Below are positions 3,195-32,434 of a stretch of DNA of 35,529 nucleotides, one piece after another. The notes beneath the pieces were generated by a model. It was given only the letters and a program-made list of their open reading frames with translations, was not told the origin of the DNA and ran no database searches. The stretch is taken from NCBI GenBank assembly GCA_018064645.1, contig JAGHUT010000071.1:1-35529 (forward strand), read 5' to 3'. Each line of letters starts with the position of its first letter. Within the stretch, counting starts at the first letter, position 1. This DNA is from Candidatus Crickella merdequi (GTDB lineage: Bacteria > Bacillota > Clostridia > Peptostreptococcales > Anaerovoracaceae). Position numbers and translations under genes: made by a program.

Positions 3195-5511
3195 TATTAC
3201 TCCATTGCTGCTTCATCAAATCAATCCTGTAGTTGCCTTTACGATTAATATCGATTCCAACAGCTCCATTATAATCTGTTCTGTATATCTTTACGCCTCT
3301 ATTCACAAGACGCTCTATTGTCTGCTCATGTGGATGGCCGTACATATTGTTTAATCCGACAGATATGATCGCTATGTCGGGCGTTACTGCATCGAGGAAA
3401 GCCTCGCTTGAACTTGATCTGCTTCCATGGTGTGCAACTTTAAGGATATCGCAATCAAGCTCATCTGTACCACTGTAGTATTGTAACATATGGAGTTCAT
3501 CTTCCTCAAGAAGGTCACCAGTCACAAGAACTCTGACACCCCTGTAATAAACCATAAATACCATATTGAATTCATTAGCTTCATCACTTGCAATGATACC
3601 AGTCGAAGACCTTTCCACTGGCCATAGGGGCTTGATGTAGCAGTCTTCTCCAACCTGGATGATATCAGCAGTGGTGATAAACCTTGTATTTGAATGTTCG
3701 GATTCATAACTTCGTGAATACTGCTTCGAAAGTATTATTTCCCTGACAGGATATATTTCGGACAACTCCTCAATACCCTTATAGTGATCTGTGTGAAGAT
3801 GTGTCAGCACTGCAGCATCAATATCCGGTGTGCTGTTGGCGAGAAGATAAGGTTTAAGTATATCTTTGCCTATATTGCATTCTGCATTGCCGCCTCCATC
3901 TACAAGAATGTCATCACTGCCAGAACGAATATGTAATGAATCACCCTGACCTACAGAAAGAAAAACAAGTTCATCATCTCCAAACTGATTATAAGTTGCC
4001 ATACACATTATTAAGCCTGGAATAATAAGGCAAATCACTGCATCCTTTATCACATCGTAATTCTTGCGAATCAGCTGCACCCTCATCCATTCTGAACAGG
4101 CAGCAAAGATGAGACAGTAGAATATAATCAGCAATCCAGGACTACATACTGTCTGATCAAATGACCAGCTGCCCTTCATATTCAGAACCCGGTTAACTTC
4201 AAGGAGCAATTCCAGTAACCCGGCAATTATCTGATAGAGCAGCACTGGCATATTACCAATAATAATTATCAGTCCAATCCCTGCTATGCATAAAGGAACC
4301 AGTACCGAGGCAATTAAAGTGACAGGTATATTGATAAATACGGTCAATGGGCTTACTCTGTGGAACAGAAAAGCTGTAATCGGTGCAATCGCCAGCTGTA
4401 CAGCGATTATGACACTTAAATAATCTCCTACAAAGTAACTTAATGCAGGTGCAGCAAACGCTATTCCAAGCATTGCCAGAAATGACATCTGAAATCCCGT
4501 ATTAAAAAGCTGATATGGGTTACTGATAAGAAGTACCAGCGCAGCAAAGCTTACAGATGTCAGAAGGTCTGCTCTTCTTCTTAATCTCGTTGATGCAAGG
4601 CTTACCGCCATTACCATTACTGCTCTTACAGTAGATGGGCTCCACATAGTCATCTCACCGTAACATATAAGAACTGTCACAATAAATATATTCACTCCTG
4701 AAGTCCGTCTTCTCTTAAGCAGTAATGAAAGCAGGGAGAATAGAAAGCCAATATGAAGCCCACTTACAGCAAGTATGTGTCCAGTTCCATTCTCATTAAA
4801 CTGGTCTCTTGTTGCTTCATCAATTTCGTTCTTATCTCCAAAAACAACGCCTTTAACAAGAGCTCTCAGTTCCGGCTCTCCATCAAAGGACTCTTCAAAG
4901 CCTGATCTGGCTGACATTATACGCTTATGAATTCGGTGCAGCAGTTCATCATTATCATCTATTACAATATATCTGCTTGTAAGTCCGCACCTCACTCCTC
5001 TAGAGGCCTGATACAGCCTGTTATCAAAGCATCCAGGGTTGTCTCTTCCTTCAAACTTACGCAGCGTTCCACCTGCTGTGATATAATCTCCAATCGCTCC
5101 ATAAATGTCCAGTTCATCTTCAAGCTGGTGATTCTCATCAACATATGCTATACGAATATATCGGCCAACGCTTCTGTCTTCCGGAACAGCAAGTATCTCA
5201 TATCCATATTCTTTATATCTTATTGTCTTAATAACGCCGTGAAGGTCATAATCGGCTATCTCAGCCGCACCACTGCTCAAAGCAATAAAGTGTACAACCA
5301 TAGTAAAAAATCCTGTCACAATGGAAATTATAAGCACTCTGCGCTCTTTCGATGTTAGAGTTCTGTCTTCAGGCAATCTGCAGACACATGAACCTGCAGC
5401 AATCATCAGTGCAGCTGCCCATAATGGCTTGGCCATTTCACAAAAGATAAATGCACAGACAATTCCCACAGCAAATGCAGTTGTATAAACAAACAATCTT
5501 CTTCTAAGCAA
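3184..5511 (-). CDS. comEC: DNA internalization protein ComEC/Rec2
   Basis: 775 aa with N-terminal membrane domain, competence motif (GHILAVSGLHIGFLF) and C-terminal metallo-beta-lactamase domain (THLHTDHYKG, VAHHGSRSS); TTG start preceded by GGAGG. Confidence 0.95.
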   Translation of the reverse strand: MLRRRLFVYTTAFAVGIVCAFIFCEMAKPLWAAALMIAAGSCVCRLPEDRTLTSKERRVLIISIVTGFFTMVVHFIALSSGAAEIADYDLHGVIKTIRYKEYGYEILAVPEDRSVGRYIRIAYVDENHQLEDELDIYGAIGDYITAGGTLRKFEGRDNPGCFDNRLYQASRGVRCGLTSRYIVIDDNDELLHRIHKRIMSARSGFEESFDGEPELRALVKGVVFGDKNEIDEATRDQFNENGTGHILAVSGLHIGFLFSLLSLLLKRRRTSGVNIFIVTVLICYGEMTMWSPSTVRAVMVMAVSLASTRLRRRADLLTSVSFAALVLLISNPYQLFNTGFQMSFLAMLGIAFAAPALSYFVGDYLSVIIAVQLAIAPITAFLFHRVSPLTVFINIPVTLIASVLVPLCIAGIGLIIIIGNMPVLLYQIIAGLLELLLEVNRVLNMKGSWSFDQTVCSPGLLIIFYCLIFAACSEWMRVQLIRKNYDVIKDAVICLIIPGLIMCMATYNQFGDDELVFLSVGQGDSLHIRSGSDDILVDGGGNAECNIGKDILKPYLLANSTPDIDAAVLTHLHTDHYKGIEELSEIYPVREIILSKQYSRSYESEHSNTRFITTADIIQVGEDCYIKPLWPVERSSTGIIASDEANEFNMVFMVYYRGVRVLVTGDLLEEDELHMLQYYSGTDELDCDILKVAHHGSRSSSSEAFLDAVTPDIAIISVGLNNMYGHPHEQTIERLVNRGVKIYRTDYNGAVGIDINRKGNYRIDLMKQQWSNNGI

Positions 5512-18512: not shown

Positions 18513-19079
18513 TTACTTAACGATAATCTCTCCCTCAACTGTTCCAGGAAGTCCAGCAGCATTGCACTCATCTGTATCGATGTGCATGAGAGGTGAACCT
18601 GGGTTTACTCTGATTACAACGTCATCAAAGATGAGTGAACGGTCGTCAGTTGTGATCTTAACCTGAACGATGTCATTCTTCTTAACGCCGATCTCATCGC
18701 AGTACTCCTGACCGATGTGGATATGTCTCTTAGCAACGATAGCGCCTTCTGGTGCATCATACTCGCCAGCCTCACCAACAATCTTGATAGGAGCTGAACC
18801 AGCTGTATCTCCTGAAATTCTAATAGGAGCGTCTACTCCGAGCTTACGAGCATCTGTCTTAGCCAGCTCAACCTGAAGTGGTCTGTAAGGTCCAAGAATA
18901 GCAACTCTCTCAGCTGTGCCCTTAGGGCCAACAAGAGTAACTCTCTTAGCGTCAACGAATGCGCCGCCGCCTGTGAGCTCCTTAACTGGAGTCATCTCAG
19001 CATCTGCTCCGAAGAGAATCTTGTAAACGTCCTCTGGAAGATGTACGTGCTTTGCGGATGTTTCTACACTACAATTCAT
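18513..19079 (-). CDS. pduL: PduL-type phosphate acyltransferase
   Basis: NCSVETSAKHVHLP, LGPYRPLQVELAKTDARKLG, IVAKRHIHIG, MHIDTDECNAAGL. Confidence 0.93.
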   Translation of the reverse strand: MNCSVETSAKHVHLPEDVYKILFGADAEMTPVKELTGGGAFVDAKRVTLVGPKGTAERVAILGPYRPLQVELAKTDARKLGVDAPIRISGDTAGSAPIKIVGEAGEYDAPEGAIVAKRHIHIGQEYCDEIGVKKNDIVQVKITTDDRSLIFDDVVIRVNPGSPLMHIDTDECNAAGLPGTVEGEIIVK

Positions 19080-19208: not shown

Positions 19209-20657
19209 TTATCTTGATGCAACGATTTCCTTCAGCTCTACCATTGGGAACTTCTCTCCATTCTTGTCCAGTGAAGAAACAAGGATGATTACTGCGAAGT
19301 CGAAGATGTAGAGTCCGAACAGAGCCCAATCCATGTTCATGCCGAGCTTGTCAGCAAGTCCAGGTGTCATTGTAATTACATAGAGGCCGATACCACCAAT
19401 GAGTCCGAGGATCATCTGTGCTGTTACACCCTTCATTGTAGCGCCCTTGTAGTATACTGAGCAAATCAGAGCTACTGTCATTGCGCCTGTGTATGGGTAT
19501 GTTGATGAGATGATAGCGTCCAGGATGTTTGTCATGTAGAAAGTAATCAGGATTCCGAGAACACCTGCAACGATTACAGTCAGTCTGTTCAGCTTGTTAG
19601 CGAATGGAAGCTCTGAGAGCTCCTTGTCTGGGTGAAGAACTGATCTGTAGAAGTCCTTAGTTACACAACCTGCTGTTCCGATGAGGAGGCAGTTTCCTGA
19701 TGACATAGCAGCTGCAAGTACAGCTGTTACTACGATAGCTGCGATGAATGTTGGGCATGTCTGTGATACTGTGTAAGCAAAGATTCCATCTGTTACCTCT
19801 GGGAACAGAATGTGTCCAGCAACACCTACTGCAGAAGCCATTGTTCCGATGAACATTGTAACGATTCCGCCACCGATGCATCCCCACTTAGCTGTGTTAG
19901 CATCCTTAGCTGACTGGTATCTCATGAAGCAGTCATAGCATACTGCCATTGAGAGCAGGAATGGAATGATGTAGTATACGAACTTGCCAACATCTGGGAT
20001 GAATGGTGTTCCGAATACTGTAGCTGCTGAGCCAAGTCCAGCTGCCTTAACAGCCTTGATTGAGAAGATTGCAGCAAGAGGAACTCCGATTCCAAGGATG
20101 CAGAGCTGGATAAGGTCTCCAACTACTACTGAAAGCATACCACCCATTGAGCTGTAAATGATGATTACTACAGCGCAGATGATTGCTCCTGTTGAGAATG
20201 GAAGTCCGAATGCTGAAAGAATGCTTCCGCAAGCGAGAAGCTGAGCTACATAGATACCTACAAGGTTAGGTACGTTTGTGATTGTAGCGAGAGCTCTTGC
20301 AAGTCTGTTAGGTCCGAATCTGAGCTCGAAGAAGTCCAGTGGAACTACGCAACCAGCTGTTCTCATCTTTCCAGCGAAGAATACACCAGCGATGATGCAT
20401 CCAACTCCACAGCTCATTGAGTAGTACATTCCTGGCCATACGCCAAGCTGCATTCCTGTTGTTGCACCACCAACTACTACTCCAGAACCAATCTGTACAG
20501 CAGCGATTGTGCAGATAGACATGATAAGTCCAACCTGTCCGCCGGCTACAAGGAAGTCATCAGCCTTGTTAGCTTTGTTCTTTGCCCAGAAACCGATTCC
20601 GAGAAGAACTACAAGGTAGAGACCTGCTACGAATAAAATAATGTTTGCAGTACTCAT
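19209..20657 (-). CDS. Sodium:solute symporter (SSS) family transporter
   Basis: 482 aa, about 13 hydrophobic helices, SSS-like N-terminus (GFWAKNKANKADDFLVAGG) and GSGVVVGGATTG; substrate unknown. Confidence 0.88.
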   Translation of the reverse strand: MSTANIILFVAGLYLVVLLGIGFWAKNKANKADDFLVAGGQVGLIMSICTIAAVQIGSGVVVGGATTGMQLGVWPGMYYSMSCGVGCIIAGVFFAGKMRTAGCVVPLDFFELRFGPNRLARALATITNVPNLVGIYVAQLLACGSILSAFGLPFSTGAIICAVVIIIYSSMGGMLSVVVGDLIQLCILGIGVPLAAIFSIKAVKAAGLGSAATVFGTPFIPDVGKFVYYIIPFLLSMAVCYDCFMRYQSAKDANTAKWGCIGGGIVTMFIGTMASAVGVAGHILFPEVTDGIFAYTVSQTCPTFIAAIVVTAVLAAAMSSGNCLLIGTAGCVTKDFYRSVLHPDKELSELPFANKLNRLTVIVAGVLGILITFYMTNILDAIISSTYPYTGAMTVALICSVYYKGATMKGVTAQMILGLIGGIGLYVITMTPGLADKLGMNMDWALFGLYIFDFAVIILVSSLDKNGEKFPMVELKEIVASR

Positions 20658-20731: not shown

Positions 20732-21997
20732 TTACACCTGATAGTTTCCCTCTACAAAATGTTTCATAACTTTTGCCGCGAGTCCCGGTACCTTCGATGA
20801 AGGCAACGCACTCATTGCGAATCTGACACCGCCTGAATCAAGAGGAATTGAGAAGATAAGGTCCTCTTTAAGTTCATCACAAAGTGCGAACTGGTCATTT
20901 GCAGGAAGTGTTACGAAGAAGCCAGCTTTATAAGGGAGAATTGGAAGACCTACTTCCTCTGCTTCCTTAACGAAAATCGCTGCTCTTTTTGCGATAAGAT
21001 CAGTGAATTCCTGTCTCTCCTTATCTGTCTGCTCCTTCAGTTGCGGATCCGCCATAATCATTGCAAGAGCTGTCTGAGCACCTCTTGAACCGTTTGACCA
21101 TGTGGATCTGTTTGAGAAAGTGATTGTGCGGTCGAACTCATCGATAATCTCTTCTGATGTTGAAACTCCAATAAGTGCTCCTGATCTCATTCCGTAAATA
21201 AGGAATGATTTAGACATGGAGAACGCTACGAGAAGAAGTACGTTCTCAGGCATGTTGTCGAAGTACTTAAGGAAATCTCTTACCTCATCCTTATCACCTG
21301 CGTAGTCTGTATACGCCATATCCCACAGAACAATAATCCTCTTCGACTGGTCCTCTGCTGCTTCTCTGTAATAATCAGTAAGCTGCTTCCAGTCTTCATT
21401 TGACATTGTGTATCCTGAAGGATTATGGGCAGGTGTGTTGAAGAATGTCAGAAGACCTTCCTGAGAAGAAAGAAGCTCCTTGGACTTTTCAATGATTCCC
21501 TCTACGTCGAATTCATTGTTTTCGTTGAAGCATCTGTACATCTCATACTGTCTGTTGCACTCAACCCCCATCTCTCTATATGGACCCCAGCACCAGTCTG
21601 GAATTAAATACTTCTCATCAGCACCTACATAGTTGTAAATAGCGTGATGGATAGCACCGGATCCTCCTGGAGTAGCAATTGCCCTGGCAAAAGTACCTTT
21701 AGGCTGGTGGCCCTGGAATGTGAACTCTATTGCAGCATCTCTGAAGTCAGCTGTTCCAGGGATTCCTGCATAATCACAGAGTTCATTTCCGGGAAGCTCT
21801 CTATAGATTTTTTCAAAAGTAGGAAGAGTAGCGAAAACTCCGTTCTCATCCTTGATAACACCCAAAGTCGCTTCTATTACTTTGTCCGCTCCGAACTCCT
21901 CGATTGCCTTTCTGGCTGTAAGTGATGCTCCGAAGCTGTTATCTTCTTTTTTGGCTTTGTTTCTTGCCTCTTTGGCAAGCATTGTCATTACTGCCAT
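20732..21997 (-). CDS. PLP-dependent aminotransferase, class I/II fold
   Basis: TPGGSGAIHHAIYNY, FFNTPAHNPSGYTMS, LWDMAYTDYAG, PLP lysine motif SMSKSFLIYGMRSGAL. Confidence 0.9.
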   Translation of the reverse strand: MAVMTMLAKEARNKAKKEDNSFGASLTARKAIEEFGADKVIEATLGVIKDENGVFATLPTFEKIYRELPGNELCDYAGIPGTADFRDAAIEFTFQGHQPKGTFARAIATPGGSGAIHHAIYNYVGADEKYLIPDWCWGPYREMGVECNRQYEMYRCFNENNEFDVEGIIEKSKELLSSQEGLLTFFNTPAHNPSGYTMSNEDWKQLTDYYREAAEDQSKRIIVLWDMAYTDYAGDKDEVRDFLKYFDNMPENVLLLVAFSMSKSFLIYGMRSGALIGVSTSEEIIDEFDRTITFSNRSTWSNGSRGAQTALAMIMADPQLKEQTDKERQEFTDLIAKRAAIFVKEAEEVGLPILPYKAGFFVTLPANDQFALCDELKEDLIFSIPLDSGGVRFAMSALPSSKVPGLAAKVMKHFVEGNYQV

Positions 21998-22043: not shown

Positions 22044-22577
22044 TTACTTAACACACTCGAAGCCTGCCATGAGAGCAGCCTCGTTTGCCTCAGCAAACTT
22101 GCCCTTGCCGTGTGATACGAAGTAATCCTTAAGCGCAACCTTTGCATCCTCGATATCGAAGATCTGTCTTGCCTTGATGATTGCTCCGATTGAAACGATG
22201 TTAGCAGCCTTGATGTTCTTTACACTCTCAGCAAGTGTTGTGCATGCAACCTCAACCACATCGATTCTTCCGTTGTAGTCAGGAACTGTATCAACTGCAT
22301 CTGTGTTTACGATGAGAAGACCTCCGTCCTTAAGGCAATCTGCGAACTCAAGTGATGGTCCGTTCATAGCTACTACTACATCCGGTGTATCATAGTCTGG
22401 TCCACCGATAACGCCATCTGAGAACTTTACTACGCTGTATGCCTTACCACCTCTCATTGATGGGCCGTAAGCAGGCATCCATGTAACGTTCTTACCAGCA
22501 CTCAGAGCCATTTCTGCTGTAATGAGACCTGAAGTAAGTACTCCCTGTCCGCCAAATCCTGCGAAAATTATTTCCAT
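22044..22577 (-). CDS. 2-oxoacid:acceptor oxidoreductase gamma subunit
   Basis: 177 aa; IIFAGFGGQGVLTSGLITAEMAL and TWMPAYGPSMRGGKAYSVVKFSD. Confidence 0.93.
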   Translation of the reverse strand: MEIIFAGFGGQGVLTSGLITAEMALSAGKNVTWMPAYGPSMRGGKAYSVVKFSDGVIGGPDYDTPDVVVAMNGPSLEFADCLKDGGLLIVNTDAVDTVPDYNGRIDVVEVACTTLAESVKNIKAANIVSIGAIIKARQIFDIEDAKVALKDYFVSHGKGKFAEANEAALMAGFECVK

Positions 22578-22587
22578 AGTGCCCCTC

Positions 22588-23328
22588 CTATTTATTGTTG
22601 TTCTTCAGCTCGCCGAGTGGATAGTAAGGAATAACTTCCTCGTTCATCCATGCTGCACAGTCAGCTACGCCTTTTCTCCAGTTTGTAGGACAAGGTGATA
22701 CTACCTCTACCATTGAGTAGCCTTTTCCCTCAATCTGGTTTCTAACAGCTGTCTGAATATACTTCTTGAGCTTGTTAATCTCTGCTGCGCTGATAGTTGT
22801 TCCTCTTGCAACGTAGTTAACATTCTCAAATGAAGCTACGATCTCAGGAACCTTGATTGGAAGACCTGTAATATCACAGTCTCTTCCGTTAGGGCTTGTT
22901 ACAGTAACCTGTCCTGGCATTGTTGTCCATGACATCTGTCCGCCTGTCATAGCAAAGTTGTTATTCAGAACTGTGATAACTGTGATTGGCTCATTTCTGT
23001 AAGCTGCGTTAAGAGTCTCTGCAAGACCGATAACGTAAGCATCTCCATCGCCCTGATATGCGATTGAGAGAAGGTCTGGACGACCTACCTTAACTCCAGT
23101 AGCTGTAGCGCCTGCACGGCCGTGAGCTGTCTGGATAACGTCACCCTTCCATGCTGGTGGGTTCATGTTGCAGCAGCATCCTACACCAAGTGTGAGGATT
23201 GTCTTCTGATCATATCCCTCTTCCTCGAGTACCTCGGCAAGAAGTCTGAATACAATTCCGTGACCACAACCAGGACAAAGAGTATGTGGATTCTCAAGTA
23301 ATCTAGGTACGCTCTTAGTAACTGCCAT
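22588..23328 (-). CDS. 2-oxoacid:ferredoxin oxidoreductase TPP-binding beta subunit
   Basis: HTLCPGCGHGIVFRLLAE, GVGCCCNMNP, HGRAGATATGVKVGRPDL, GDGDAYVIGLAETLNA; start placed at ATG 23328, directly after the alpha subunit stop. Confidence 0.95.
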   Translation of the reverse strand: MAVTKSVPRLLENPHTLCPGCGHGIVFRLLAEVLEEEGYDQKTILTLGVGCCCNMNPPAWKGDVIQTAHGRAGATATGVKVGRPDLLSIAYQGDGDAYVIGLAETLNAAYRNEPITVITVLNNNFAMTGGQMSWTTMPGQVTVTSPNGRDCDITGLPIKVPEIVASFENVNYVARGTTISAAEINKLKKYIQTAVRNQIEGKGYSMVEVVSPCPTNWRKGVADCAAWMNEEVIPYYPLGELKNNNK

Positions 23329-23329
23329 A

Positions 23330-24397
23330 TTAGAATACCTCCTTCTCTTCGCCAGCGATAACGCGCTTAATGAATGCAACTGCCTCTGATGGTCTAACAA
23401 CCTTCTGAGCTGTATAGAGTCCATATACTGGAACGTTTCCGTCAACCATCTTCTTTGTTGCAAGTGCAACGTCCTCAACAACCTGACCAGCGTCTGTTGT
23501 CTCGATTGAGATGATTCCCTTTACGTCCTTCTTGATCTCAGCAAATGCCTTGAATGGGAATGGCCATACCATGATAGGTCTGATAAGACCAACCTTGATT
23601 CCCTCTGCTCTGAGCTGATCAACAGCCTCTCTTGTTGTTCTTGATGGCAGACCATATGCTACGCATACATAGTCAGCATCCTCAACAAGATAGCTCTCCC
23701 ATCTCTGCTCATTCTCCTGCATTGTCTCAATCTTCTCTCTAACTCTTCTTGGCTTGTCAACGTAGAGTGGTGTACCGTGGTTGAATGAATGTCTGTCACC
23801 AACACCGTCCCATACCCAATCCATCTCTGACTGCTTAGGACCCTCCTTGAACTCTGGGAACTCTACAGCTTCCATCATCTGTCCAAGTGCTGCCTCTGAG
23901 AGAATCATTACAGGGTTTCTATATTTCTCTGCCATATCCCATGCCTCATACATGAGATCGATTGTCTCCTGAATGCTGTTTGGTGCGAATACAGGGAGTC
24001 TGTAGTCTCCGTTTCCGCCTCCTCTTGTTGCCTGGAAATAGTCAGTCTGAGCTGAGTCAAGTGAACCAAGACCTGGGCCCCATCTGATTACATTTACAAA
24101 TACTGTTGGAATCCAGTTAGAGCAAAGATATCCAATAGCCTCCTGCTTAAGAGCGAATCCAGGACCGGATGATGATGTCATACATCTCATTCCTGTTGAA
24201 CCTGCACCCTGAAGCATGTAACAAGCTGCCATTTCGTTCTCAGCCTGAATAAACTTACGTCCGAGCTCTGGCATTCTACCTGACAGATACTCACCAACCT
24301 CAGTCTGTGGAGTAATTGGGTATCCAGCGTAGAACATGCATCCAGCTCTCATTGCTGCCTCGGCAATTGCGTGATTGCCTTTCCACAATTCTTTCAT
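23330..24397 (-). CDS. vorB: 2-oxoacid:ferredoxin oxidoreductase alpha subunit, VorB-like
   Basis: KGNHAIAEAAMRAGCMFYAGYPITPQTEVGEYLS, TSSSGPGFALKQEAIGYL, YGLPSRTTREAVDQLRAEGIKVGLIRPIMVWPFP. Confidence 0.93.
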   Translation of the reverse strand: MKELWKGNHAIAEAAMRAGCMFYAGYPITPQTEVGEYLSGRMPELGRKFIQAENEMAACYMLQGAGSTGMRCMTSSSGPGFALKQEAIGYLCSNWIPTVFVNVIRWGPGLGSLDSAQTDYFQATRGGGNGDYRLPVFAPNSIQETIDLMYEAWDMAEKYRNPVMILSEAALGQMMEAVEFPEFKEGPKQSEMDWVWDGVGDRHSFNHGTPLYVDKPRRVREKIETMQENEQRWESYLVEDADYVCVAYGLPSRTTREAVDQLRAEGIKVGLIRPIMVWPFPFKAFAEIKKDVKGIISIETTDAGQVVEDVALATKKMVDGNVPVYGLYTAQKVVRPSEAVAFIKRVIAGEEKEVF

Positions 24398-24457: not shown

Positions 24458-24664
24458 CTAGTCCTCTGTGATCGTAAATACGATGTCAGGGCATACTGTG
24501 TAGCAAATACCACATTTGATACACTTCTCATCATCACACTGTGCAGGATAGTATCCAGCAGTGTTTGGACGTGCTGCGAGTGAAAGAGCCTTCTTTGGGC
24601 ATGACATTACGCAGAATCCACATCCTTTGCATCTCTCTTCATTGATATGAAGTGTTGCCATTTT
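24458..24664 (-). CDS. 2x[4Fe-4S] ferredoxin-type delta subunit
   Basis: CKGCGFCVMSCPKKAL and CIKCGICYTVCPD; start at ATG 24664 with SD GGGAGG. Confidence 0.93.
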   Translation of the reverse strand, partial: KMATLHINEERCKGCGFCVMSCPKKALSLAARPNTAGYYPAQCDDEKCIKCGICYTVCPDIVFTITED

Positions 24665-24766: not shown

Positions 24767-25834
24767 CTAGTTCTGACCGTAGAGTTTAGCCTCTTCCTCG
24801 CCATCAAGAACAGCCTTGATACCTGTAGCGAGAGCCTCCATCTCAAGTGCTCCTGGAATTACCTGAACAGGTGCCATCCACTGACATCTCTCGATGATCT
24901 TTGAAGTAAGTGACTGTGAGTAAGCTGCTCCACCAGTTACAACAATCTTGTCTACCTTTCCGTAAACAACTGATGCCATGTAAGCAACATACTTAGCAAT
25001 CTGATATGACCAGAAGTCAACTACTTCAGCTGCCCACTCATCGCCTTCTGCAATTCTCTTCTCAACTTCTCTCATATCGTTTGTTCCGAGAAGTGACTTG
25101 AGTCCTGTTCCGCCGATAAGGTACTTTGTAAGTTCTTTCTGTGTATACTCACCGCTGTAAGCCATCTTAATGATGTCTACATAGTGAATTGATCCTGAAC
25201 GCTCTGTTGACATTGGACCTTCCTCAGTTGCGATACAGTCGATAATCTTACCGCCGCTGTGAACGTTGATGCTTGAACCGCCGCCAAGATGAACTGCGAT
25301 GAAGTTACCATCTGCATAGTTTATTCCCATATCTGCAGCAGCCTTCTTACATACAGCTCTTGTGTTCAGTGAATGAGTTCTGTTCTTTCTATACAGACCC
25401 TTAATACCTGTGAGATGTGCAAGTCTTGTTGTCTCGTCTGAACCTACTGCATCGTAGATGTACGCATTAACACCATACTTCTCAGCAATGTCTCTTCCCA
25501 TTACAGCTGCCCAGCTTGATGGATGAGTTGCTGATGGCTCCATGCACTTCTCAATGAGAGCATCGTCTACCAGATAAGCTCCACCAATAAGACCACCGAA
25601 CGTACCGCCTCTGCATGCAACTGCAGAAAGCTTCGACATGTCTACGCCCTCTTCCTCCAGTGTCTTAAGGATAAGTTCCTTTCTGTAAACCATCTGCTCT
25701 GCCTTCTCAGGATACTGAGCAAGCTCTTCGATGCTGTGCATAATGTTCTTCTCGAAGATCTGTGTAGTATCCTCGTACCAGGCAATCTTTGTTGAAGTTG
25801 CGCCTGGGTTGATAACAAGAATATTATAAGCCAT
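24767..25834 (-). CDS. buk: Butyrate kinase family protein
   Basis: ILVINPGATSTKIAWYED, VACRGGTFGGLIGG, IAVHLGGGSSINVHSGGKIID, VVTGGAAYSQ. Confidence 0.95.
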   Translation of the reverse strand: MAYNILVINPGATSTKIAWYEDTTQIFEKNIMHSIEELAQYPEKAEQMVYRKELILKTLEEEGVDMSKLSAVACRGGTFGGLIGGAYLVDDALIEKCMEPSATHPSSWAAVMGRDIAEKYGVNAYIYDAVGSDETTRLAHLTGIKGLYRKNRTHSLNTRAVCKKAAADMGINYADGNFIAVHLGGGSSINVHSGGKIIDCIATEEGPMSTERSGSIHYVDIIKMAYSGEYTQKELTKYLIGGTGLKSLLGTNDMREVEKRIAEGDEWAAEVVDFWSYQIAKYVAYMASVVYGKVDKIVVTGGAAYSQSLTSKIIERCQWMAPVQVIPGALEMEALATGIKAVLDGEEEAKLYGQN

Positions 25835-25882: not shown

Positions 25883-25898
25883 TGAAAAAAATATTTCA
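25883..25898. promoter_or_regulatory. TGAAA-N6-TTTCA candidate operator at buk
   Basis: TGAAAAAAATATTTCA inside a longer TTTGAAA/TTTCAAA inverted repeat (25881-25900), between the predicted TSS and the start codon. Confidence 0.5.
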
Positions 25899-25930
25899 AA
25901 GCGCGCAAAAAACGAAATTTTGTTATCTTT

Positions 25931-25959
25931 AATTTAGTCTCATAGAATCTTTAAGTCAA
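25931..25959 (-). promoter_or_regulatory. Putative promoter of the buk operon
   Basis: Minus strand TTGACT-N17-TAAATT, about 100 nt upstream of the buk start. Confidence 0.6.
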
Positions 25960-26072
25960 GTTAATTTCAAAATTATTTTTTCACAGAAAAATTTTTACGA
26001 AAAAAGTATTGCATTTTTTGTGTTTTTAATTAAAAATTCAATTAACGCTAGGCAAAATACTGGAGGTGTTCT

Positions 26073-26738
26073 ATGAAACAGGTAAACGATATACATTTTG
26101 AATTTCAGACAAAGAATCAGCTTTATAAATTTACAGATACAAGCCTTTTCATAAACTATAAAGAGTACCCATATAAGGACCTTACAGTTAAGGCTTTTCA
26201 TGAAGGAAATGCCGTTATCAACGCATGGTATGAACTTGAAACAGCATCCGGCAAGAAGCTTATAGTTGCCTACAAGCCAAAGAGAAAAGAAATCGGCGCG
26301 CAGCTTAAGACAATTTTCAAGTACATAGCTTCCTTTGATCAGGCTAAATCAGACAACTACCATGCTAATCACAAGGAATTTGAGTTCATCGTAGACGGTA
26401 ATACAGCCGGAGATTCAGTCTGCAAGACCAACACAACCGAAACAATCCTCGGATTTATCAATCGAGACAAAACATTTGTCCTTGCAGATGAAGTTCTTGA
26501 TGGCGAGATTCAGCTTGATGAGACTGATCCTGACAATATCAAAGTCGAAATCTATATGTACAATATAAATGGAGACCCTGTTCACATCGGCTATGTTCCT
26601 GACAGGCTTATGCAGGAAATGAGTCCATATCTTGAAGAAGGTATTACATACGAGCTCAGAATGCTTGCAACACGCTATGGAATAGCAAAAAAGACTTACA
26701 TCATTCGCGCACTTCTGATCTTCGATCGCCGTAAATAA
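26073..26738 (+). CDS. Uncharacterised protein with a HIRAN-like C-terminal region
   Basis: 221 aa; C-terminus DETDPDNIKVEIYMYNINGDPVHIGYVPDRLMQEMSPYLEEGITYELRML resembles HIRAN; N-terminus FTDTSLFINYKEYPYKDLTV...KKLIVAYK looks like a small PH-like beta fold. SD TGGAGGTG. Confidence 0.6.
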   Translation: MKQVNDIHFEFQTKNQLYKFTDTSLFINYKEYPYKDLTVKAFHEGNAVINAWYELETASGKKLIVAYKPKRKEIGAQLKTIFKYIASFDQAKSDNYHANHKEFEFIVDGNTAGDSVCKTNTTETILGFINRDKTFVLADEVLDGEIQLDETDPDNIKVEIYMYNINGDPVHIGYVPDRLMQEMSPYLEEGITYELRMLATRYGIAKKTYIIRALLIFDRRK

Positions 26739-26758
26739 CATAAGTCTCTTGTTTTATC

Positions 26759-26787
26759 AAAAAGGAGTTTATTCCTCGAAGAACTCC
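26759..26787 (-). terminator. Terminator overlapping the 3' end of the alpha/beta hydrolase gene
   Basis: Minus strand GGAGTT-N12-AACTCC followed by TTTTT; the hairpin loop includes the stop codon. Confidence 0.6.
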
Positions 26788-27593
26788 AGCATATCTTTAC
26801 AGAGCTGCTCAGGGGCTCGGCTTACGATTTCGTGGCCGAGTCCTTCGTATATTCTCACTTCTGCATCAGGCATAATCTCCATAAATTCTTTTCTATAATG
26901 CTCTGGCAGACCCATATCCTTCTCTCCCCAGATAGCCATAACAGGCGCCTCGATGAATTGAAGGAAGTTCCTGTGATCTGTCATTGTCATTCCCCACCAT
27001 GTAGGGCCGAAATAACCGGCCGGAAGAGTCTGCAGATCCTTCAGCTGATACTCAAGGCCTTCCTGGTCTGGATAGCCAGCCCTTTCTGAGTACCAGTTCT
27101 CATCGGGTCTGTTATCATTTATATTCCTGTAAAACTGTGCCGAGCGTGCAATATCAGCCTGACTCTCATTCATTCTTGCAAAAGTCGATACAAGTACTGC
27201 TTTAATAATTCTGTCAGGAATCATAAATGCTATTGCCTGGCAAATATAGCTGCCTATGGAATGACCTGCAAGGTATGCCCTCTTAATTCCAAGAATATCC
27301 ATAAGTTCAATTACATTCTCAGCCTGCAAAGCAATTGGGAATGAGAACCTGTCCGGACAGGAACTCTGTCCTGCGCCAATCTCATCAATTGCGTAAATGT
27401 GATACTTCTTTTCGAGGAACCTGAAAGTATACTGCCAGTTTCTTCCTGAATTGCCAAAGCCGTGAAGAAGAACCAGTGGTGCCCCTTCTGTATTGCCTGC
27501 TTCCATATATGAAACTGTCATGCCGTTACTCAAGCTGACAAGACGTTGTCTTTCTTTCCACTCTGAATGCTCTGCCGCCTTAATAATTGCCAT
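26769..27593 (-). CDS. Alpha/beta hydrolase
   Basis: LVLLHGFGNSGRNW, nucleophile elbow LAGHSIGSYI, C-terminal EGLGHEIVSRAPEQ. Confidence 0.92.
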   Translation of the reverse strand: MAIIKAAEHSEWKERQRLVSLSNGMTVSYMEAGNTEGAPLVLLHGFGNSGRNWQYTFRFLEKKYHIYAIDEIGAGQSSCPDRFSFPIALQAENVIELMDILGIKRAYLAGHSIGSYICQAIAFMIPDRIIKAVLVSTFARMNESQADIARSAQFYRNINDNRPDENWYSERAGYPDQEGLEYQLKDLQTLPAGYFGPTWWGMTMTDHRNFLQFIEAPVMAIWGEKDMGLPEHYRKEFMEIMPDAEVRIYEGLGHEIVSRAPEQLCKDMLEFFEE

Positions 27594-27634
27594 CTTATTA
27601 TTCCTTTCTGATTATTTCCCATAACAAGCCAACA

Positions 27635-27654
27635 ACCGTCGGTCATCCGACGGT
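27635..27654 (-). terminator. Hairpin downstream of the first RpiR gene
   Basis: ACCGTCGG-TCAT-CCGACGGT perfect 8-bp stem; minus transcript continues with U-rich TGTTGGCTTGTT. Confidence 0.6.
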
Positions 27655-27725
27655 GCCAGCAAAATGCGAAATGAAGGTGAATGTAATGGTTTGTACTTTA
27701 ATTATTTTAAGTGCTCCAAGCTGGT

Positions 27726-28574
27726 CTACAGAACAAACAGTTCTTTGTTAGTGCACTTGTTAGACTCATGCTGGAGGTTAGCCTCTACAACATCAGGAAT
27801 CTCTGCCGCAATGATGTTGCAAAGTATATTAACTAGCGCAATGGTTGCAACATGTGTGCAGTCAAGGGCTACACCTCTAACCGGTGCAAGCAGAGTGTAA
27901 TCTGCTGCACTGGCAAGAGGATTTGTACAATTGTCTGTGAACGCAACAGTAGTAATCCCGGTCCTTTTTGCAAGTTCTACACATGCAAGAACCTCTTTAA
28001 CAATTCGCTGCGTACTGATTGCAATAAGAACATCTCCATGCTGAATATCGCTGTATTCAAACTTGTTGAACAGGCCCAGTCCTGTAATCTCGTGATAATC
28101 TTTGCCAAGACGCCATAGATAGTGACCAAGCGCTCTTACAACGGTTTCGCTTGAATACATTCCTATTATATATATCTTTCTTGCTTTCTCAATCTTCTCT
28201 GCAACTATGTGCAAAAGTGCCTCGTCGATGGAATTCTCCATTGAAGAAAGATTAATATAATCATTCTTTACAGATTCTTCGATCAGTTCACTTTCTGTTG
28301 TCTGTTCCATTGCTGACTCAAACATATCAAAAGGTGTGATCATTTCTCTATAAAGCAACTCGAATTCAGTTTTGAATTCGCCAAACTTCTCATAGCCTAG
28401 TTTATGAACAAGTCTGGTCATTGATGTTGCAGATACACCACAGTACGAGGCCATCTGCTGTCCGCTTAGAAAAACAGTGCTTCCCATATCGCCCATAAGC
28501 AACTCAATCATCTGAAGCTCTCTTGCAGTGAGCTTCGCCCTGCTGATTCTTTCTTTAAGAGCTGGACCTGTCAT
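27726..28574 (-). CDS. MurR/RpiR family transcriptional regulator (paralog 1)
   Basis: N-terminal HTH (GQQMASYCGVSATSMTRLVHKLGYEKFGEFK) and SIS domain (IYIIGMYSSETV...VLIAISTQRIVKEVL...FTDNCTNPLAS). Confidence 0.92.
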   Translation of the reverse strand: MTGPALKERISRAKLTARELQMIELLMGDMGSTVFLSGQQMASYCGVSATSMTRLVHKLGYEKFGEFKTEFELLYREMITPFDMFESAMEQTTESELIEESVKNDYINLSSMENSIDEALLHIVAEKIEKARKIYIIGMYSSETVVRALGHYLWRLGKDYHEITGLGLFNKFEYSDIQHGDVLIAISTQRIVKEVLACVELAKRTGITTVAFTDNCTNPLASAADYTLLAPVRGVALDCTHVATIALVNILCNIIAAEIPDVVEANLQHESNKCTNKELFVL

Positions 28575-28613
28575 ATGTGCACCCCTCTTCTATAACTTAA
28601 ATACCTGATAATA

Positions 28614-29912
28614 CTATGCGTGCTTCTCCTCTTCTCCATCCTGATAAGGCTTCTTAAGGAAGATTATTCCAAGGATAAGTGCCATAACATACATTCCGGC
28701 ATAAATCTTGAAAGCAATATCATATGAACCTGTTGAATCAAAGATTGCTCCTGAGAACAGACCAGCAAGGATAGGTCCTGCATACAGGAAGAGTGAAACT
28801 ACTCCAAAAATCTTGCCGTACTCTTTGCTTCCAAGTCCGTGTACTGTAATCAGTGGTGAAAGCAGATTTGTGCAGGCAAATGCAATACCGAAGATAAATG
28901 CAGTAATTTCTGCCATTCCTCCCTTTGGACTGATGTTAAGAATCATGATCTGTCCAACAACACCAATTGATGCCATTACGATAAAGTTCTTATATGTTCC
29001 AATCTTATCGTTAAGCCATCCAAAGAAAATCTTTGCAGCTGCCATACTTAAACTGATTGTACTGATAAGTGCACCAGCCTTAACTGGCTCAAATCCTGAA
29101 TCAACAAGGAAAGCGGAAATATGTGAGAAAATTCCGATTGCTCCTGTTGAAAGGAAGAATGCGATGAAGCAGATTGCCCAGAACTTTGGTGTTTTGAATG
29201 CCTGCTGACGTGTATATCCACCCTTCTGTGACATCTCAAGCTTCTTCTGTGCAGCAGCCTGTGCATTTGCAGCTGCTGCTTCAGGATCCTCATCACCGTA
29301 AGGTACAAGTCCCATATCTTCAGGTGCATATCTGAAGAGAAGGAATGTTGGAAGCAGACATACGATAGCAATGATACCGAGAGTTCTGATAGCTGCCTGA
29401 TATCCGCTAGCTACGATAATTGAGCTTGCAAGTGGATTAAATACAGCACTTCCGAAACCTGAACCTGTTGTAGCAAATCCCATTGCAAAGCCCTTCTTTG
29501 CATGGAACCAGTTGTTGAGAACGATGTTTGTTACTACAGCACCAGCAAAGTTTGAACCGATACCAATGCAGAGTGCGCAAGCATAAAGTGTAGCTTTTCC
29601 TGTAGCAAATGAATATCCGAACCATCCAATTACTACAAGGAGGATACCTGCTCTGATTACGTTCTTAGGGTTGAATTTCTCAAATACCTGACCAACAAAT
29701 GGCGATCCACCACAAACAGCTACTGAGATTAGTGAATTTGCAAGAGCAAACTCAGTTCTTGAGATTCCAAAAGCTTCTGTCATCGGAATGAGGAACTGGC
29801 TGAATGAGTTTACAAACATACCAGTCACTACAGCAGTCAGAAGCCAAACTGATACAAGCAGAAACCAGCCATAAAAAATCTTGTTCTGCTTCTTTCCTTC
29901 TAAAGTTGCCAT
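28614..29912 (-). CDS. MFS transporter, OFA (oxalate/formate antiporter)-like
   Basis: 432 aa, about 12 TM; OFA-like N-terminus FYGWFLLVSVWLLTAVVTGMFVNSFSQFLIPMTEAFGISRTEFALA. Confidence 0.88.
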   Translation of the reverse strand: MATLEGKKQNKIFYGWFLLVSVWLLTAVVTGMFVNSFSQFLIPMTEAFGISRTEFALANSLISVAVCGGSPFVGQVFEKFNPKNVIRAGILLVVIGWFGYSFATGKATLYACALCIGIGSNFAGAVVTNIVLNNWFHAKKGFAMGFATTGSGFGSAVFNPLASSIIVASGYQAAIRTLGIIAIVCLLPTFLLFRYAPEDMGLVPYGDEDPEAAAANAQAAAQKKLEMSQKGGYTRQQAFKTPKFWAICFIAFFLSTGAIGIFSHISAFLVDSGFEPVKAGALISTISLSMAAAKIFFGWLNDKIGTYKNFIVMASIGVVGQIMILNISPKGGMAEITAFIFGIAFACTNLLSPLITVHGLGSKEYGKIFGVVSLFLYAGPILAGLFSGAIFDSTGSYDIAFKIYAGMYVMALILGIIFLKKPYQDGEEEKHA

Positions 29913-29966
29913 TTTCTTACCTACCTTTTTATCTTATGTTAAAAACGTTTCTTCGAATTTCATAAA

Positions 29967-29982
29967 TGAAATTTCTTTTTCA
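29967..29982. promoter_or_regulatory. TGAAA-N6-TTTCA candidate operator, start-proximal site of the MFS promoter
   Basis: TGAAATTTCTTTTTCA, overlapped by AATTTCAT-AA-ATGAAATT. Confidence 0.5.
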
Positions 29983-29987
29983 TTGTG

Positions 29988-30016
29988 ATGTTATCACTCC
30001 GCGGAAAAACTGTCAA
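29988..30016 (-). promoter_or_regulatory. Strong sigmaA-type promoter of MFS-rpiR1
   Basis: Minus strand TTGACA-N17-TAACAT. Confidence 0.7.
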
Positions 30017-30033
30017 CGCATAACGATATTTTT

Positions 30034-30049
30034 TGAAAATATTTTTTCA
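30034..30049. promoter_or_regulatory. TGAAA-N6-TTTCA candidate operator, upstream of the MFS -35
   Basis: TGAAAATATTTTTTCA. Confidence 0.45.
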
Positions 30050-31362: not shown

Positions 31363-31528
31363 GTGATACCTCCATATTAAATAAATAATACAATTATTAA
31401 TACCATTGCTGTTCGAGCCACATAATGTTGCAGAAAATTACTTTTCGTATTATGCGCTCTATGAAAAGTAAATCACAGAGCGACAATTCGGTCAATACCT
31501 AATTGTTATTTTTGTTTCGAAAAAAATT

Positions 31529-31560
31529 AAGTGCGTTAATGAAATTTCATAAACGCACTT
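31529..31560. terminator. Bidirectional terminator containing a palindromic loop
   Basis: AAGTGCGTT/AACGCACTT stem, T tracts in both directions, loop contains ATGAAATTTCAT. Confidence 0.8.
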
Positions 31561-31582: not shown

Positions 31583-32434
31583 CTATACGCAGAAGAGATC
31601 GTCTGTCTTAGTTACTCTCGATTCTCTAAGATTCTCTCTTACTATATCCTGTGTCTCTCCGGCAATGAAGTTGCAGAGAATATCTACGAGCGCAAGTGAT
31701 GCAGTCTGAGTATAGTCGAATACTTTTCCTTTTACAGGAGCAACCAGTACATAATCAGCTTTGCTTGCCAGCGGATTTGTATAGTTGTCAGTAATAGCTA
31801 CTGTAACTACGCCATTATCATTAGCATACTCAACAGATTCCATAATCTCTTTGAGAATTCTCTGTGAACTGATTGCAATAACCATATCCCCAGGTTTCAC
31901 ATCACTGAAAGTAAACTTCTTGGAAAGTCCGATTCCAGTAAAGGTCTCGTGCATCTTACCCAGTCTCCAACAGTAGAAGTCAAGAGATTTAGCAACGATC
32001 TCACTTCCGAACATACCTAAGATAAAAATCTTTTCTGCTTTACTGAAGTGTTCTGCTACCGCCTTCAGTGTATCTTCATCGAGATTATCTTCCATAATCT
32101 TGAGGTTCTCATAATCTCTCTGAAGTGACTGGCTTATAATCTCACTCTTAATCTCAGACTGAAGATAACTGTCAAACATATCTTTAGGCATAATCTGTTC
32201 ACGATACAATTCTTCGATATCTTTCTTGAAATCTGAGTACTTATTGTAGCCGAGCTTCTGTGTAACTCTTGTAATTGATGTAGGTGAGAGCTTGCATAGC
32301 TCTGCAACCTGTGAAGCACTTAAGAATACAACATTATCTACATTATTAATAATGAAATCAACGGCCTGTCTCTCACTTGCTGTTAATTCAGCAGATAGAA
32401 TTCTATCATTCAGTTCATTATTAATTCTTCCCAT
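31583..32434 (-). CDS. MurR/RpiR family transcriptional regulator (paralog 2)
   Basis: HTH (ASQVAELCKLSPTSITRVTQKLGYNKYSDFK) and SIS domain (MVIAISSQRILKEI, ITDNYTNPLAS); clear homology to the 27726-28574 product. Confidence 0.92.
   Translation of the reverse strand: MGRINNELNDRILSAELTASERQAVDFIINNVDNVVFLSASQVAELCKLSPTSITRVTQKLGYNKYSDFKKDIEELYREQIMPKDMFDSYLQSEIKSEIISQSLQRDYENLKIMEDNLDEDTLKAVAEHFSKAEKIFILGMFGSEIVAKSLDFYCWRLGKMHETFTGIGLSKKFTFSDVKPGDMVIAISSQRILKEIMESVEYANDNGVVTVAITDNYTNPLASKADYVLVAPVKGKVFDYTQTASLALVDILCNFIAGETQDIVRENLRESRVTKTDDLFCV

Follow-up and report, generated by a model that had tools for sequence, protein, structure and literature searches.

A conserved gapped palindrome at the promoters of a probable amino-acid fermentation operon and an RpiR-encoding operon in Candidatus Crickella merdequi

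Palindromes at the locus and in the genome

The window analyzed here is a 35,529-nucleotide stretch of Candidatus Crickella merdequi DNA (GenBank assembly GCA_018064645.1, contig JAGHUT010000071.1), and the element in question is a gapped palindrome, TGAAA-N6-TTTCA, found at the promoters of two operons (Table 1). The catabolic operon, read on the minus strand, begins with an acyl kinase gene of the butyrate-kinase family (buk) and continues with genes for a ferredoxin-like subunit, the alpha, beta, and gamma subunits of a 2-oxoacid:ferredoxin oxidoreductase, aminotransferase 1, a sodium symporter, and a PduL-type phosphotransacylase. The second unit, on the same strand, consists of genes for an MFS transporter, the regulator RpiR1, and an alpha/beta-hydrolase-like protein. 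Another aminotransferase gene (aminotransferase 2) and a second regulator gene, RpiR2, lie further upstream of the MFS unit.

The three exact copies of the palindrome listed in the initial annotation are all present, one in the buk leader and two around the MFS promoter, compared with a mean of 0.13 in 100 dinucleotide-preserving shuffles of the window, none of which reached three or more. A pattern search of the assembly (1,608,310 bases, 92% complete) returned five exact copies. The remaining two (C5:36950 and C90:18935) both fall within open reading frames (ORFs), and thus all of the assembly's intergenic exact copies belong to this cluster. The relaxed form, YGAAA-N6-TTTCR, occurs eight times in the genome; the three sites beyond the exact set comprise two within ORFs and one just before a response-regulator gene. 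When spacers of 3 to 9 were allowed, the genome yielded 24 sites and no second cluster comparable to that of the window. The initial annotation had missed one degenerate element, CAAAATTATTTTTTCA, which lies directly 5' of the buk -35 (second buk operator in Table 1).

Table 1. Genes, predicted promoters, and candidate operators of the two units and their neighbors
Feature	Coordinates	Strand	Remarks
MFS operator 1	29967..29982	-	TGAAAAAGAAATTTCA on minus strand; starts 5 nt after -10, so at about +1; G005 counterpart CGAAAAAAATATTTCG, same place
MFS operator 2	30034..30049	-	TGAAAAAATATTTTCA; 5' of -35; 67 bp from operator 1; G005 counterpart TGAAATAATTTTTTCG, same 67-bp spacing
Predicted MFS promoter	29988..30016	-	TTGACA-N17-TAACAT, flanked by the two operators; conserved in G005
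buk leader operator	25883..25898	-	TGAAATATTTTTTTCA; 32 nt 3' of -10; weaker CGAAAGAAAATTTTCT in G005 leader
Second buk operator, degenerate	25968..25983	-	TGAAAAAATAATTTTG on minus strand, just 5' of -35; motif score 19.2; aligned G005 site full, TGAAAAAATTATTTCG
Predicted buk promoter	25931..25959	-	TTGACT-N17-TAAATT; -35 region kept in G005
Acyl kinase, butyrate-kinase family (buk)	24767..25834	-	First catabolic-operon gene; TIGR02707, 377.5 bits, above cut-off
Ferredoxin-like subunit of 2-oxoacid oxidoreductase (KorD)	24458..24661	-	
2-Oxoacid:ferredoxin oxidoreductase alpha (VorB subfamily), beta, gamma	22044..24397	-	
Aminotransferase 1, class I/II	20732..21997	-	Top NCBIfam match aromatic aminotransferase, far under cut-off
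Sodium:solute symporter	19209..20657	-	
PduL-type phosphotransacylase (PTAC)	18513..19079	-	
MFS transporter, oxalate/formate-antiporter and monocarboxylate-like group	28614..29912	-	First gene of its operon
RpiR1, proposed regulator	27726..28574	-	HTH_6 and SIS; second MFS-operon gene
Alpha/beta-hydrolase-like gene after RpiR1	26769..27593	-	Named from sequence; same place in G005
RpiR2, RpiR1 paralog	31583..32434	-	48-49% identical to RpiR1; alternative or second regulator

Conservation of the palindromes in relatives

This RpiR type was sought in 148 relatives (E ≤ 1e-30) and was present in just two other genomes, one of the same genus (G005) and that of Bacilliculturomica massiliensis (G054), of the family Anaerovoracaceae. 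A scan of named genomes added three contigs of metagenome-assembled genomes, L024, L026, and L027, two from Oscillospiraceae and one labelled Clostridia. RpiR1 alone as the query recovered no relatives, whereas an alignment-based scan recovered them; searches of 395 genomes at the order level and 399 at the phylum level added no further RpiR homologs. The gene order in G005 is that of the window. In B. massiliensis and the three contigs the RpiR gene occurs together with the same catabolic genes, and the order in B. massiliensis, L026, and L027 is ferredoxin, alpha, beta, gamma, ADP-forming acyl-CoA synthetase, aminotransferase 1, symporter, MFS transporter, and RpiR.

Seven 250-bp promoters of these operons could be compared, L024 being left out because its contig starts inside the operon. 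YGAAA-N6-TTTCR was found in all seven, in one or two copies each, across relatives that keep the RpiR gene and represent about three lineages; dinucleotide shuffles of each promoter predicted only 0.003 to 0.013 sites. The spacing is likewise specific, as no spacer from 0 to 20 other than N6 recurs in more than one of the seven promoters, and N4 occurs in none. The core GAAA-N6-TTTC is present in 13 copies over the set, in which TGAAA-N6 ranked first among all 5-mer gapped palindromes tried and GAAA-N6 among all 4-mer ones.

The initial annotation had cautioned that such matches might arise by chance in AT-rich DNA, and the promoters are indeed AT-rich (27 to 36% G+C). However, shuffles of the 250-bp promoters themselves give expected numbers of exact motifs of 0.004 for buk and 0.003 for MFS, against one and two observed, and the palindromes are retained even in contigs with 62 to 64% G+C. 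An Rfam search gave no family match. Together with the shuffles of the seven promoters and the failure of other spacers to recur, these results leave it barely credible that the palindromes are chance matches, or that they are UP elements or RNA structures instead of an operator. The footprinting indicates that the TGAAA-N6-TTTCA sites are real, evolutionarily conserved control sites.

The palindromes also occupy a regular position. In the MFS promoters of the window and G005 and the korD promoters of B. massiliensis, L026, and L027, an operator starts 5 to 7 nt downstream of the -10, the distance being 7 nt for the full site at each of the three korD promoters. The B. massiliensis korD promoter carries a second full site 31 bp further on; in L026 and L027 a near-site is found 144 bp upstream. 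Operators in G005 lie at places equivalent to those in the window, often with C and G as the outer bases; given a mean column identity of 75% between the aligned promoters, the window and G005 can be regarded as partly independent. In B. massiliensis, 11 of the 15 other exact sites are within ORFs, and 110 kb of DNA around 27 more distant aminotransferase homologs contained zero sites.

A regulon joining the buk operon, the MFS operon, and aminotransferase 2 under an RpiR protein had been suggested initially. Footprinting, and the fact that the homologous loci share RpiR as their regulator gene, strongly support the joining of the first two. The degenerate palindrome reported before aminotransferase 2 (31432-31447) does exist, but its score of 10.1 lies within the background of the window, where a site in coding DNA at 3725 scores 14.9. 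This palindrome is not conserved in G005 while the core promoter is kept; the site was for that reason rejected, and aminotransferase 2 is not supported as a regulon member. A block at that promoter, CTGTGATTTACTTTTCAT (31452-31500 region), extends over the predicted -10 and is identical in G005; its conservation may reflect only the promoter. Another candidate element near 31540, TGAAATTTCA, was discarded on sequence grounds because it corresponds to the loop of a hairpin that resembles a terminator.

RpiR1 as the candidate regulator

The two RpiR regulators mentioned in the initial annotation are the sole genes in the genome with PF01418 matches above the cut-off, and both are in the window. 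RpiR2 scores 49.2 bits for the HTH_6 domain; RpiR1 scores 28.1 bits by hmmscan (cut-off, 28.3) and 30.3 bits, above the cut-off, in the genome search. The SIS domain is above the cut-off in both. A predicted model of RpiR1 (mean predicted local distance difference test score [pLDDT], 81) gave as its top fold match Streptococcus pneumoniae NanR bound to DNA (PDB 9dqn), and MurR and the Sphaerobacter thermophilus protein 3sho were also matched.

It is quite likely that an RpiR-family regulator, most probably RpiR1, uses YGAAA-N6-TTTCR as its operator and thereby controls both the fermentation operon and the unit that contains its own gene, MFS-RpiR1-hydrolase. An RpiR1 dimer would sit on each palindrome, and a tetramer may bridge paired operators. 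With RpiR1 bound at the start-point operator and at a second site nearby, RNA polymerase would be blocked, and both the catabolic operon and the regulator's own operon would be repressed until a pathway metabolite built up and the block was lifted. Repression by blocking of polymerase is proposed because one operator usually starts at about +1. An activator role is possible, as NanR is one, but sites at about +1 favor repression.

RpiR1 is a better candidate than RpiR2 because its gene belongs to one of the two operons under control, that of the MFS transporter, and because its HTH region more closely resembles those of the operon-linked RpiR proteins of other lineages, which have the same operator; identities to the proteins of B. 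massiliensis, L024, L026, and L027 are 63 to 74% for RpiR1 and 45 to 63% for RpiR2. That RpiR2 is instead the main binder, or that both paralogs share the palindromes, seems unlikely, although some observations speak for it. The counterparts of the NanR contact residues Ser50, Thr55, and Arg56 are kept in both paralogs, and RpiR2 is the better conserved of the two between the window and G005 (75% versus 53% identity). Moreover, a weaker motif match in G005 (L020:13399-13418; score, 14.8) lies just 5' of RpiR2, which may share control there.

No gene of the cluster has diverged more between the window and G005 than RpiR1, whose neighbors are 68 to 93% identical. This divergence coincides with the replacement of T by C at the outer positions of the operators in G005, and it is possible that regulator and operator have co-evolved, which we note as a lead.

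Global regulators such as CcpA and CodY are widespread in Bacillota, and a different regulator with a similar site might be considered. The arms of the CodY motif run in the reverse order, TTTTC and then GAAAA, which counts against CodY. For CcpA, the S. pneumoniae cre consensus tTGAAAGtGtTTaCAa, as quoted in PMC12713135, does have TGAAA-like arms. However, the sites described here have an AT-rich six-base center without a central G/C step, unlike the short G/C-containing center of cre, and a global regulator should have many intergenic sites, whereas the exact motif is intergenic nowhere else in the genome. On the basis of center, arm order, and genomic distribution, CcpA and CodY were set aside as binders, and a regulator of this kind is improbable.

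For RpiR1, the closest comparison is NanR, which likewise has HTH and SIS domains and TGAAA/TTTCA half-sites (PMC12713135; PDB 9dqn). The equivalents of Ser50, Thr55, and Arg56, namely S48, T53, and R54, are invariant in 8 of 8 proteins of the present type, and the NanR R56A mutation abolishes binding (PMC12713135). NanR Arg67, a residue that reaches into the minor groove at the dyad (PMC12713135), is replaced by G, S, T, or A, and loss of this dyad arginine would fit the wider N6 spacing. NanR further differs in its S-x-S-G-x-T loop and in being an activator of sialic-acid genes, in contrast to the repressor proposed here. Pseudomonas RccR and HexR also use palindromic operators, and RccR combines one half-site with varying linker lengths; at aceE its two 15-bp sites are 68 bp apart, comparable to the 67 bp at the MFS promoter (PMC5489143). 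Those regulators differ in half-site (TGTAGT for RccR, TTGT for HexR), in their ligand, the sugar phosphate 2-keto-3-deoxy-6-phosphogluconate (KDPG), and in their central carbon metabolism targets (PMC5489143). Escherichia coli MurR matches in sequence and fold, with HTH_6 and SIS domains, but keeps the S-x-S-G loop and controls cell-wall sugar recycling.

Several points weigh against control by RpiR1 through these operators. The NanR consensus, TCTGAAACTACTTTCAAA, has the TGAAA half-site with an N4 spacer (PMC12713135), not N6. The buk leader operator, 32 nt past its -10, is more distant than the operators at other promoters, and the corresponding site is weak in G005. The RpiR proteins of L026 and L027 are 98.9% identical, which leaves few independent lineages, about three. 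Finally, S-x-S-G is also missing from the loop of another family member, 3sho, for which no ligand was found.

The loop in question is the one with which the SIS domain grips the phosphate. All eight homologs have S-[STN]-Q-R-[IV]-[VL] in place of S-x-S-G-x-T, and its Gln-Arg is invariant. In the alignment, Gln, Arg, and Val or Leu stand opposite NanR Ser181, Gly182, and Thr184, while Ser135, Ser179, and Arg148 are retained. The S-x-S-G motif is kept in NanR, MurR, and RccR, all of which bind sugar phosphates, and the four RpiR regulators compared in the NanR paper all respond to phosphorylated carbohydrates (PMC12713135). Because this loop is replaced by an invariant Gln-Arg, the effector of RpiR1 is probably something other than an ordinary sugar phosphate; the change argues against the usual ligand and not against membership in the RpiR family, which is assigned by HTH and SIS. 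The protein 3sho, the best single-sequence PDB match (62 bits; SIS fold match, 1.7 to 1.8 Å), likewise has an arginine where sugar-phosphate sensors carry glycine (S-V-W-R). Its structure comprises the SIS domain only, and neither a function nor an operator for it was found in this analysis.

The probable fermentation pathway and the range of the RpiR clade

The buk operon, initially called a fermentation operon, is best read as serving oxidative amino-acid fermentation and not butyrate formation; it combines an aminotransferase, a 2-oxoacid:ferredoxin oxidoreductase, a phosphotransacylase, and an acyl kinase. The gene set follows the logic of the HpdDEFG-HpdJ-HpdK tyrosine pathway of Clostridium scatologenes, whose gene content includes a four-subunit 2-oxoacid:ferredoxin oxidoreductase, a phosphate acyltransferase, and a butyrate-kinase homolog (PMC13285125). 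The window differs in having a PduL-type transacylase and not a phosphate butyryltransferase homolog, and the other lineages have an ADP-forming synthetase. The substrate in the window is probably an amino acid and may be aromatic. The Hpd-type pathway acts on 4-hydroxyphenylpyruvate; the oxidoreductase alpha subunit in the window scores best as VorB.

In B. massiliensis, HpdBCA-type p-cresol-forming genes lie between the MFS and RpiR genes, the latter closing the run. The glycyl radical enzyme matches 4-hydroxyphenylacetate decarboxylase 2y8n with 972 bits, the small subunit matches 2y8n_B with 61.5 bits, and a radical-SAM activase is also present. These genes make it plausible that the family handles an aromatic substrate. 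No HpdBCA homologs were seen at the loci of the window, G005, L026, and L027.

A broader proposal, which we put forward tentatively and hold somewhat less probable than its opposite, is that this RpiR clade no longer senses ordinary sugar phosphates. On this view its effector would be an intermediate, whether carboxylic, 2-oxo, or acyl-phosphate, in the oxidative fermentation of amino acids, perhaps aromatic ones; its operator would be NanR-like with a spacer 2 bp longer; and in B. massiliensis, if in no other cultured bacterium, it would govern the formation of p-cresol. The switch itself would be of a known kind, the RpiR type; what appears new is the amino-acid fermentation target, the wider operator, and the changed sensing loop. 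If true, a clade devoted to amino-acid fermentation would extend the known range of the family beyond sugar phosphates and provide a candidate transcriptional switch for the arylacetate- and p-cresol-type gene clusters of anaerobes. A literature search found no paper linking RpiR with p-cresol or Stickland fermentation, and the word regulator is absent from the text of PMC13285125.

Some further features of these loci are of interest in themselves. The B. massiliensis region (L021:10642-19843 with L022:2-4521) may be a complete tyrosine-to-p-cresol cluster that carries its own switch. The window pairs a PduL-type phosphotransacylase (18513-19079) with a butyrate-kinase-family enzyme (24767-25834) in one amino-acid operon, and such PduL versions would escape the enzyme survey of PMC13285125 because that survey sought PF01515 transacylases. 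Divergent from buk, at 26073-26738, is a gene for a 221-amino-acid protein without a Pfam match, a copy of which, 69% identical, stands at the same place in G005.

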